NCBI GenBank assembly: GCA_903970555.1
Contig: CAJCJD010000015.1
Location: 1-33,449 of the forward strand
Source of the DNA: Vulcanimicrobiota bacterium
GTDB taxonomy: Bacteria; Pseudomonadota; Gammaproteobacteria; Xanthomonadales; Rhodanobacteraceae
DNA: 33,449 bases
Direction: 5' to 3'
The notes beneath the pieces were generated by a model. The model did no database searches and was not told where the DNA came from. It saw nothing but the letters and a program-made list of their open reading frames with translations. The position numbers and the translations under genes are program-made. Below, piece by piece: positions 1-33,449 of this stretch (position 1 is the stretch's first letter; the number at the start of each line of letters is the position of its first letter).

Positions 1-1254
1 CTGATCTCCGGCGTGGCGTTCTACTTCATCACCAAGAGCCTGATGCCGGCGATGGCGGACAATCTGTTCGGCTGCACCATCGTCGGGCTGGCATTGACCG
101 CCGCGCTGATCATCATCACCGAGTACTACACCGCGACCGAGTACAGCCCGGTGCGGAAAATCGCCGCCGCGTCGCAGACGGGTCATGCCACGAACATGAT
201 TGCGGGGCTCGGCCTCTCGATGAAAGCCACCGCGCTCCCGGTGCTCGCCGTGTGCATCGCCATCTGGGGCGCCTACAAACTCGGGCAGGAGTACAGCATC
301 GGCCTCTACGGGATTGCCACGGCCGCGACGGCCATGTTGTCGATGACCGGCATGATCGTGGCGCTCGACGCCTACGGACCGATCACCGACAACGCGGGCG
401 GTATCGCGGAAATGGCGGGCCTTTACGGCATCGCCGTCGCCGCGACGGCCATGTTGTCGATGACCGGCATGATCGTGGCGCTGGATGCCTATGGTCCGAT
501 CACCGACAACGCTGGCGGCATTGCCGAAATGGCGGAGCTGCCGCCGGAAGTGCGCGGCGTAACCGATCCGCTCGATGCGGTCGGCAACACCACCAAGGCG
601 GTGACCAAGGGCTATGCCATTGGCTCGGCCGGCCTGGCTGCGCTGGTGTTGTTCGCCGATTACACCCATCGGTTGGCGCTGGATCATCCGGGCAAGGTGT
701 TCACGTTCGATCTTTCCGATCCTCGCGTGATCGTCGGCTTGCTGATCGGCGGACTGATCCCCTACTTGTTCGGCGCGATGGCGATGGAAGCGGTCGGCCG
801 TGCGGCGGGCGCGGTGGTGGAAGAAGTGCGTCGCCAGTTCCGTGAGATTCCCGGCATCATGCAGGGCACCGCGAAGCCGGACTACTCGCGCGCCGTGGAC
901 ATGCTCACCAAATCGGCGATCAGTGAAATGCTGGTCCCATCGCTGTTGCCTGTGTTGATCCCGATCATCGTCGGTTTCGTACTCGGGCCCATCGCGCTGG
1001 GCGGCCTGTTGATCGGCACCATCGTCACCGGCTTGTTCGTAGCCATTTCGATGACCACCGGCGGCGGCGCCTGGGATAACGCCAAGAAGTACATCGAAGA
1101 TGGCAACTTCGGCGGCAAAGGTTCCGAAGCGCACAAGGCAGCAGTTACTGGCGACACCGTGGGCGATCCGTACAAGGACACCGCCGGCCCTGCCGTGAAT
1201 CCGCTGATCAAGATCATCAACATTGTGGCGCTGTTGCTGATTCCGTTGCTCTGA
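1..1254 (+). CDS. hppA: Membrane-bound proton-translocating pyrophosphatase, C-terminal part (5' end outside window)
   Basis: Integral membrane pump that couples hydrolysis of cytoplasmic pyrophosphate to ion export. The reading frame is open from base 1, so the start lies upstream. Family motifs are clear: EYYT near the left end, [32 protein letters not shown], and the C-terminal [14 protein letters not shown] and [14 protein letters not shown] blocks, ending in a hydrophobic helix. The lysine in GNTTK (codon 595-597) is the residue that marks K+-independent H+ pumps; K+-dependent members have alanine there. The oddity is an exact in-frame tandem duplication of 39 codons (301-417 and 418-534), which repeats one helix and the DNAGGIAEM active-site segment; normal members have one copy. 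A strong terminator follows the stop. The identity is certain; whether this copy is functional is not. Confidence 0.95.
301..534 (+). repeat. In-frame tandem duplication of 117 bp inside hppA
   Basis: Two adjacent 117-bp units (301-417, 418-534) each encode the same 39 residues from GLYGIA to AGGIAEMA. I count 14 base differences. They change only one residue (Thr in copy one, Val in copy two, codons 319 and 436). A central block of 44 bases (322-365 and 439-482) is identical, and all differences lie on either side of it. Confidence 0.95.
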
Positions 1255-1269
1255 CGACGCTTTAAAACA

Positions 1270-1300
1270 CCCCTCGCCCATCTCGTGGCGAGGGGTTTTT
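1270..1300 (+). terminator. Rho-independent terminator after hppA
   Basis: A 9-bp perfect stem (CCCCTCGCC at 1270-1278, GGCGAGGGG at 1287-1295) with an 8-base loop is followed by five T. Four A at 1264-1267 on the left side could give weak function in the other direction. Confidence 0.9.
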
Positions 1301-1424
1301 GGACGCCGAATGATGATCGCCTGGCGCTCCATCCAGACTTCCGCCACTGGCGCCCCTCATCAAAGCGTGCATCCTGAACGCTCCGCGCGATGCCCCGGCC
1401 TCGCGCCCATCACGGAGCGCACGC

Positions 1425-3551
1425 ATGAGTTTGAAGACATCGGCACGGCTGGCCCTCGTGCTCGCCGTCATAATGGGCGGCATGACCCACGCCCAAGACA
1501 ATCCAACTCCCGGCACAGCCGCCCCCTCTGACGATCCGTATCTGTGGCTGGAAGACATCCACAGCCAGCGCGCGATGGATTGGGTCAAAGCCCAAAATGC
1601 CATCACCCAAAAGCAATTCGCCAGCAGCCCCGAATTCACGAAAACCCAGGATCGCATCCTGGAGGTGCTCGATTCCGATGCGCGCATTCCGTACGTCTCG
1701 CGCCGTGGCGACCATCTCTACAACTTCTGGCAAGACAAAGCCCATCCGCGTGGCATCTGGCGACGCACCACCCTCGCCGAATACCGCAAGGCCGATCCCG
1801 CATGGGATGTGTTGCTGGATATCGATGCGCTAAACAAAGCCGAGGGCAAGCGCTGGGTGTTCAAGGGAAGCGACTGCCTCAAGCCAGCGTACAACCGATG
1901 CCTGATCATGCTGTCGCCCGATGGCGGCGACGCGGTCGAAGTGCGCGAGTTCGACATTGCCAGCAAGTCTTTCGTCAAAGGCGGTTTCGAACTACCGATC
2001 GCCAAGACCCAGGCCAGCTGGATCGACGAAAACCATCTGTACGTCGGCACCGATTTCGGTCCCGGTTCGATGACGACATCGAGCTATCCGCGCATCGCCA
2101 AAGTGTGGACGCGCGGCACGCCACTGAGTGCCGCCACCACGGTGTATGAGGGCAAGACAACCGATCTATCGATCAGCGCCGCACACGACCGCACGCCCGG
2201 CTTCGAACGCGATTTCGTTACCGTCGCGCACGATTTCTTCCATAGCGACACCTACCAGCTCAAAAACGGCAAGCTGATTCATCTCGATGTGCCGGTCGAT
2301 GCCGCGAATGTCGACGCCCATCGCGAATGGCTGCTGGTGCAATTGCGCAATGCCTGGACTGTCGGCGGCAACACGTATCCTTCCGGTGCGTTGATTGCCA
2401 TCAAATACGACGACTTCATGGCCGGCAAGCGCCAGTTCGCTACGCTGTTTGCGCCCGACGCGCATACAGCGCTGTCCAACTATGCGTGGACGCGGCATCA
2501 CATCATCCTGGACATCATGGACGACGTGAAAAGCCGTCTCGATGTACTTAGTCCGCAAGCCGATGGCCATTGGGCGCGCGAAGCAATGCCTGGCGCGCCG
2601 CAGTTCAGCACGGTGGAAGTGCTCGACACCGATCCTGACAACACGGACGAATACTGGCTCAGCGTCACCGGCTTCCTTAATCCATCGTCGCTGGAGCGCG
2701 GCGTGCTTGGCGAAGGCCAAGCGCAAACCATCAAACATAGCCCGGCGTTCTTCGACGCATCGAAGTTTGAGGTGAGCCAGCATTTCGCCACCTCGCGCGA
2801 CGGCACGCAGGTGCCGTATTTCGAAATCGCGCCCAAGGGCATCATGCTCGATGGCGCCAACCGCACATTGCTTTATGGCTATGGCGGTTTCGAGGTGTCG
2901 CTGCAACCGTTCTACAGCGGCAGTGTCGGCCGCGCATGGCTGGAACGCGGTGGCGTGTATGTCATCGCCAATATCCGCGGTGGAGGCGAATACGGTCCGC
3001 GCTGGCATCAAGCGGCGCTGCAAGAAAATCGTCTGCGCGCCTATGAGGACTTCGCCGCGGTAGCGATGGATCTGATCAAACGCGGTGTTACTTCGCCGAA
3101 CCATCTCGGTGCCGAGGGCGGCAGCAACGGCGGCCTGCTGATGGGCAACATGCTCACGCTCTATCCGCAGCTGTTCGGTGCGATTGCCTGCGAAGTACCG
3201 TTGCTCGACATGAAGCGCTACACGCACCTCTCCGCCGGCGCGTCATGGATTGCCGAATATGGCGATCCGGACGATCCGAAGCAGTGGTCCTTCATCAAGA
3301 CATTCTCGCCGTACCAGAACGTCAAGCCAGGCGTGACGTATCCACCCGTGTTGTTCTACACGACCACCAGCGACGATCGCGTGGGCCCCGTACAGGCGCG
3401 CAAGATGGCCGCGAAGATGGAAGGCATGGGTTACAAGAATGTCTGGTTCTTCGAGAACACCGAAGGCGGTCACGGCGCCGGCGCCGACAACAAGCAGGCC
3501 GCGTACATGCATGCGCTCGCCTTCGACTTCCTGTGGGACCGTTTGCAATAA
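1425..3551 (+). CDS. Secreted prolyl oligopeptidase family serine peptidase (S9A type)
   Basis: 708-residue exported peptidase expected to cleave short proline-containing peptides. Residues 1-24 form a signal peptide: a Lys/Arg start, a hydrophobic core and an Ala-Gln cleavage region after THA. Next come the N-terminal DPYLWLED block, a beta-propeller region, and a C-terminal alpha/beta hydrolase domain with YGYGGF and NIRGGGEYG. The catalytic triad is visible: Ser567 in GGSNGG, Asp650 in SDDRV, His683 in GGHG, with spacing close to porcine prolyl oligopeptidase (554/641/680). The start is supported by GGAG seven bases upstream of the ATG. It stands alone between two hairpins. The exact cleavage specificity cannot be read from the sequence; an oligopeptidase B-like role is less likely. 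Confidence 0.93.
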   Translation: MSLKTSARLALVLAVIMGGMTHAQDNPTPGTAAPSDDPYLWLEDIHSQRAMDWVKAQNAITQKQFASSPEFTKTQDRILEVLDSDARIPYVSRRGDHLYNFWQDKAHPRGIWRRTTLAEYRKADPAWDVLLDIDALNKAEGKRWVFKGSDCLKPAYNRCLIMLSPDGGDAVEVREFDIASKSFVKGGFELPIAKTQASWIDENHLYVGTDFGPGSMTTSSYPRIAKVWTRGTPLSAATTVYEGKTTDLSISAAHDRTPGFERDFVTVAHDFFHSDTYQLKNGKLIHLDVPVDAANVDAHREWLLVQLRNAWTVGGNTYPSGALIAIKYDDFMAGKRQFATLFAPDAHTALSNYAWTRHHIILDIMDDVKSRLDVLSPQADGHWAREAMPGAPQFSTVEVLDTDPDNTDEYWLSVTGFLNPSSLERGVLGEGQAQTIKHSPAFFDASKFEVSQHFATSRDGTQVPYFEIAPKGIMLDGANRTLLYGYGGFEVSLQPFYSGSVGRAWLERGGVYVIANIRGGGEYGPRWHQAALQENRLRAYEDFAAVAMDLIKRGVTSPNHLGAEGGSNGGLLMGNMLTLYPQLFGAIACEVPLLDMKRYTHLSAGASWIAEYGDPDDPKQWSFIKTFSPYQNVKPGVTYPPVLFYTTTSDDRVGPVQARKMAAKMEGMGYKNVWFFENTEGGHGAGADNKQAAYMHALAFDFLWDRLQ

Positions 3552-7139: not shown

Positions 7140-7676
7140 ATGGGCCTGGATCTGGTTAGCGCCGGCCGCGACGTGCCGAACGAAATCAACGTCGTCATCG
7201 AGATTCCCAAGGATGCGGAACCGGTTAAATACGAAGTGGACAAGGCCAGCGGCGCGATCTTCGTGGACCGCATCCTTTCCACCCCGATGCGCTACCCGTG
7301 CAACTACGGTTACGTGCCGGGCACCTTGGGCGGCGACGGCGATCCGCTGGACGCACTGGTGATCCTGCCGCTGCCGCTGGTTCCTGGCTCGGTGATCCGC
7401 TGCCATCCGGTCGGCATGCTGAAGATGACTGACGAAGCGGGCAGCGACGAAAAGCTGGTGGTGATTCCCTCGTCGAAAATTTTCCCCGGCTACGCCCATA
7501 TCAACGACATCAAGGGCGTGTCCGCGCACTGGCTGGAACGCATCGGCCACTTCTTCGAGCATTACAAAGATCTCGAGAAGGGCAAGTGGGTGAAGATTGA
7601 AGGCTGGGTTGGCGCTGAAGAAGCCAAGGCCGAGATCCTGGCCGGCGTCGAACGCCACAAGAACAACAAGGACTAA
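7140..7676 (+). CDS. ppa: Soluble inorganic pyrophosphatase, family I
   Basis: 178-residue cytoplasmic enzyme that hydrolyses pyrophosphate to two phosphates with Mg2+, pulling biosynthetic reactions forward. The E. coli pattern is complete: EIPKD and KYEVDK near the N-terminus, YPCNYGYVP, then Asp66, Asp68 and Asp71 in DGDPLD (E. coli 65, 67, 70), an SDEK metal/phosphate site, and HYKDLEKGKW near the C-terminus. The start ATG has TAAGGAG seven bases upstream. It is a single-gene unit with a strong terminator, and shares the window with membrane pyrophosphatase hppA, so the organism has both routes of PPi removal. Confidence 0.97.
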   Translation: MGLDLVSAGRDVPNEINVVIEIPKDAEPVKYEVDKASGAIFVDRILSTPMRYPCNYGYVPGTLGGDGDPLDALVILPLPLVPGSVIRCHPVGMLKMTDEAGSDEKLVVIPSSKIFPGYAHINDIKGVSAHWLERIGHFFEHYKDLEKGKWVKIEGWVGAEEAKAEILAGVERHKNNKD

Positions 7677-33281: not shown

Positions 33282-33449
33282 GAGATCGGCTCCAGGATGG
33301 GTTGCGTGCAGGGCTGTGCGTTGCGCGTGACGCAGCACATACAGCTCACGAACCACCCTGGACGGCGTTTCATCATGGTCTCCACATCGGCCCTATACCA
33401 ACTGTCGATCGACATTAACACAGCGTTATTTGGACGTCTATACATCTAT
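33282..33449. promoter_or_regulatory. Region upstream of cysB at the window end
   Basis: No gene is seen in these 168 bases. The last 40 are AT-rich for this DNA and include the dyad TAAC-ACAGC-GTTA and a TATACAT stretch. They may be a promoter or CysB site for a rightward gene beyond the edge, but the context is cut off. Confidence 0.3.

Follow-up and report, generated by a model that had tools for sequence, protein, structure and literature searches.

An apparent tandem repeat in hppA at a contig end and its almost certain origin in the joining of two bacterial lineages

The hppA frame and its repeated segment

The window, by which we mean the whole stretch of DNA analysed here, is contig C15 in its full length of 33,449 bases, window base 1 being contig base 1 and thus a contig edge. 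An hppA reading frame occupies positions 1-1254 of the forward strand and stays open throughout, including across the junction between its two pieces. The left piece (1-417, forward strand) begins at the contig edge and comprises 139 residues through the first of two repeat units; amino-acid identity, tree placement and GC3 mark it as a foreign piece of hppA. The right piece (418-1254, forward strand), starting with the second unit, is native and forms the C-terminal part of the hppA that belongs to this genome. Tandem Repeats Finder reports a single array in the window, at 301-535, with a period of 117, 2.0 copies and 88% matches. The units are adjacent and 117 bp long each: unit 1 (301-417, forward strand) is the conserved helix and DNAGGIAEM segment of the left piece, and unit 2 follows at 418-534. 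Direct comparison of the two gives 14 differences, twelve at third codon positions and one each at a first and a second position, the latter two falling in the single changed codon, which turns T into V and is the sole amino-acid change. An identical core of 44 bp lies at 322-365 in unit 1 and 439-482 in unit 2. The repeat is therefore present in the letters just as an earlier note on this DNA had described it, with 117-bp units, 14 differences, one amino-acid change and a 44-bp core, although as biology it is almost certainly false.

Both pieces are clear members of the membrane pyrophosphatase family HppA. Each matches the NCBIfam model NF001951 (sodium-translocating pyrophosphatase), positions 1-417 with an E-value of 2.6e-53 and positions 418-1251 with one of 1.6e-163, and 13 NCBIfam membrane pyrophosphatase models match each of the two. 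The whole joined frame passes the cut-off of one of these 13, NF001960 (575.5 against 546 bits), as is expected of a protein cut by a contig edge. The joined protein also matches 11 distinct solved sequences (family structures include PDB 4a01, 4av3 and 8b37). In the best of these matches, to 4a01, residues 21-92 and 138-416 align as separate stretches and unit 1 is left out, and the match to 8b37 is a single stretch over residues 15-412, placing 398 query residues on 381 chain residues. Known HppA proteins differ from the joined frame in that the latter carries the helix and DNAGGIAEM segment twice. Among the hppA loci of relatives (146 loci, some of whose rows represent one genome twice, for example L018 and L145), the motif DNAGG[IV]AEM occurs once in each of the 139 open reading frames where it was found; seven loci without a recognised motif (L047, L056, L074, L118, L125, L127 and L132) were left out of the alignment and trees. 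The doubled segment in the joined frame reflects the join and not a variant family.

Different ancestry on either side of the repeat

From unit 2 onwards the frame shares 92.8-97.1% amino-acid identity, in the full alignment, with the HppA of all 15 same-genus genomes. Likewise, when 100 genomes including the window's own were searched, residues 138-417 matched all 15 at 93-97%; for the N-terminal part the same search gave 61-67% among the matches listed, which cover 11 of the 15. In the full alignment, residues 1-100 (95 aligned residues) reach 58.9-65.3% identity to the HppA of the 15 same-genus genomes. Among the loci compared, the best matches to these residues come from a Steroidobacteraceae MAG (L032) and a Gammaproteobacteria MAG (L037), both at 76.8%, followed by a Nevskiaceae MAG (L035) and L038 at 74.7%, L067 at 73.7% and L033 at 69.5%. 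GC3 changes along the frame as well, from 0.92 (positions 1-300) and 0.90 (unit 1) to 0.82 in unit 2 and 0.80 in the rest to the right.

The trees separate the two pieces in the same way. The right piece groups with the genus, nearest to G013, in a tree built with a quick method, whereas the left piece falls in a seven-row clade with L032, L033, L035, L037, L038 and L067 (support 100/98), apart from the group containing the 15 rows of the genus; this left-piece tree was built on 102 columns and its fine placement is unsure. The left piece thus almost certainly derives, as far as sequence comparison can place it, from a lineage near Steroidobacteraceae- or Nevskiaceae-type Gammaproteobacteria. 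The earlier note had read the frame as one HppA in which a helix and the active-site motif are duplicated, and had proposed alignment with the HppA of near relatives. That alignment returned a genus-level match from unit 2 onwards and a left flank that lies outside the genus; with 58.9-65.3% identity on one side, 92.8-97.1% on the other and trees that disagree, the flanks do not belong to one gene lineage as those of a genuine duplication would, and the reading as a single HppA with a doubled helix is not supported.

A donor of the left piece was sought without success among 369 class-level and 398 phylum-level genomes, two overlapping sets that both include the window's own genome, and also among 80 loci retained from at least 591 in the genome collection; the donor gene's continuation past unit 1 was accordingly not seen. 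The lineage of the donor is placed by the tree, the closest match in the alignment being 76.8% at the amino-acid level over 95 residues. In the class- and phylum-level search the best match by E-value was to G310 (70% over residues 2-139), and the highest identity among the matches listed was to G407 (78% over residues 19-139).

The foreign piece has about five extra residues at a loop before GLYG (residues 96-100, window 286-300), which are absent from the 15 same-genus HppA and from the nearest named MAGs printed. The match in G310 is as long as the query, so a loop of the same length may be present there.

The native N-terminal half on another contig

Contig C153 breaks off inside hppA, and at this edge it carries the N-terminal half of the genome's own copy. 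In a tree built with the same quick method the C153 fragment groups with the genus, as the right piece does. Over the 59 residues covered by both, C153 is 81.4-96.6% identical to the genus and the window 45.8-52.5%, while C153 and the window are 49% identical to each other. In all 15 same-genus genomes, a single gene contains the positions corresponding to C153 base 1 and to window base 418, with exactly 106 bases separating them. The native continuation that a chimeric contig would leave elsewhere in the assembly is hence found at the edge of C153. Judged by this spacing, the genome's real hppA would most simply consist of C153, then about 106 unassembled bases, then window 418-1254, an arrangement in which the left piece has no place in the gene.

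The repeat units and the junction

The conservation of the repeated segment limits what the units themselves can tell. Where the units differ (14 sites), the letters of the same-genus genomes match unit 2 in 116 of 210 comparisons and unit 1 in 50 of 210. The units nearest to unit 1 are those of L034 (13 differences) and of L008 and L044 (14 each), L008 being a same-genus locus. Among the 75 pairs formed by five foreign-type and 15 same-genus units, none shares a run of at least 44 bp, the longest being 39, and the differences range from 10 to 29 with a mean of 20.9, so that the window's 14 stand at the low end. Across all 106 natural units, however, a run of at least 44 occurs in 227 of 5565 pairs and at most 14 differences in 820 of 5565. 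Between L003-L031 and L032-L111, sets that are not clean families as Rhodanobacteraceae occur in both, the corresponding counts are 111 and 332 of 2233 pairs. The 44-bp core is consequently unusual, not unique. By themselves the units leave two origins unproven, and the argument rests on the flanks; unit 1, too conserved to be assigned alone, would belong to the left piece on account of its flank, and there may be a further lineage switch inside it.

The junction (413-422, forward strand) can be read from the flanks of the unit in relatives. Gly-Leu follows the unit in five of the six clade partners of the left piece (for example ..GAGATGGCA GGCCTC.. in L037), the sixth, L033, having Glu-Leu. 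Leu-Ala stands before the unit in all 15 same-genus genomes, 14 of which open the unit itself with Gly-Leu-Tyr-Gly (for example ..CTGGCG GGACTCTACGGC.. in L005), L003 having Gly-Met-Tyr-Gly. The window reads ..GAAATGGCG GGCCTTTACGGC.. at this point. Foreign ..M-A-G-L.. and native ..L-A-G-L-Y-G.. thus appear to overlap, and the junction probably carries a microhomology of about 10 bp, Met-Ala-Gly-Leu and Leu-Ala-Gly-Leu sharing up to about 10 bases in the same codon phase. The length of the microhomology is estimated from relatives, since the assembly contains neither the native bases on the left side of the junction nor the foreign ones on its right. A join at a microhomology in the same phase would explain the tandem repeat, the exact codon phase and the open frame together.

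Origin of the join

Taken together, the lineage switch and the C153 fragment leave us highly confident that this sequence arose as a chimeric read or a misjoin of the hppA genes of two community members at a contig end, and not as a duplication in an organism. About 417 bases of another bacterium's hppA would have been joined end to end with the native gene, whose sequence would start at about 413-418, and the conserved 39-residue segment, present both at the right end of the foreign piece and at the left end of the native one, would for that reason be seen twice. We infer that the join arose outside any cell, either in vitro or in silico. Template switching at the microhomology of about 10 bp could have given rise to a chimera among the library molecules or reads; alternatively, the short overlap could have been accepted when gaps were closed or scaffolds built. 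The frame would survive because the join lies between Ala-Gly-Leu codons that stand in the same phase in both genes. Several observations count against this account: the core is long, unit 1 has mixed affinities, L033 has Glu-Leu after the unit, no donor was found among the genomes and loci searched, and the join is in frame, for which chance gives about 1 in 3. The first three of these touch neither the lineage switch nor C153.

Inter-species chimeric contigs arise in short-read metagenome assembly. The present case resembles them in that the lineage changes within a conserved gene at the end of a contig and the native partner breaks off on a different one; it differs in that the join involves about 10 bp of microhomology at non-equivalent positions and no long shared k-mer. 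It is the joining at non-equivalent positions that leaves an apparent tandem repeat. With about 10 bases, the microhomology falls short of every k-mer length in usual use, so the join is not explained by a simple error over a shared k-mer; likelier sources are a library molecule or read that was itself chimeric, or else the filling of gaps or the building of scaffolds. The left end of C15 has one other match reported in the genome, a homologous stretch of 41 bp in C153 at 88%, within which the longest exact match is 27 bases. At the right end, exactly 61 bases (window 33389-33449) recur, reverse-complemented, at the end of contig C102 of the same genome (G000). Neighbours in a de Bruijn graph share such end overlaps, which makes C15 and C102 probable neighbours in the graph of this assembly; at a k of this size, a join over about 10 bases cannot follow a path of shared k-mers.

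Two pieces of differing origin in a frame open across the junction could also be found in a genuine mosaic, in which a strain would have acquired the central part of hppA from a bacterium of Steroidobacteraceae type through illegitimate recombination at the microhomology, with the segment doubled in the process. Against such an event, the native N-terminal half persists and breaks off at a contig edge, facing the missing 106 bases, the foreign piece begins exactly at a contig edge, and every relative's reading frame with the motif (139 of 139) has it in one copy; we consider this origin very improbable. It is equally hard to believe that the locus encodes a real, expressed mosaic pyrophosphatase with an extra active-site helix gained by inter-family recombination, the native N-terminal half being a separate fragment.

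Less probable still, to the point of being negligible, is an old tandem duplication within hppA kept by selection, in which gene conversion made the 44-bp core identical, as the earlier note had suggested. Two nearly identical in-frame units and a core longer than the longest run in all 75 foreign-type/same-genus pairs would suit it, yet it leaves unexplained both the lineage switch, with sequence from another lineage ahead of unit 1, and the presence of a native N-terminal half on C153, and natural units also have runs as long as the core. We give just as little weight to a second, foreign hppA in the genome, a fragment of which the assembler fused to the native one; the foreign piece is a plausible HppA segment, but no other part of a second hppA is reported in the genome, and while all 15 same-genus genomes have two matches, the second, among the matches listed (11 of 15), is the adjoining N-terminal part rather than another gene. 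An assembly join between strain haplotypes had been proposed as well. The assembly join fits, but haplotypes do not, the left part at 58.9-65.3% as opposed to 92.8-97.1% on the right being divergent far beyond the genus.

With the two units almost certainly coming from joined lineages, the question of how an added helix would affect the topology of the protein does not arise. The hppA gene as assembled is unfit for studies of pyrophosphatase topology, and the first approximately 417 bases of C15 should be treated as foreign. More generally, an in-frame, highly similar tandem repeat in a conserved gene at a contig end can represent the homologues of two organisms joined at a microhomology, and separate comparison of both flanks with near relatives exposes such joins at once.

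Downstream neighbourhood

The next gene downstream (1425-3551, forward strand), which we take to be prolyl oligopeptidase-like, is native, its first part, up to window position 2750, matching all 15 other same-genus genomes. In G013, hppA and this gene are covered by one unbroken match. Across the interval corresponding to window 1255-1425, the gene directly follows hppA in G013, while the two matches lie about 3 kb apart in some same-genus genomes (for example G001, G007 and G011) and about 38 kb apart in G012, a variation in distance which indicates that genes were gained, lost or moved between them. Further along, about 5.9 kb beyond hppA, lies a frame (7140-7676) that presumably encodes a soluble family I inorganic pyrophosphatase-like protein.
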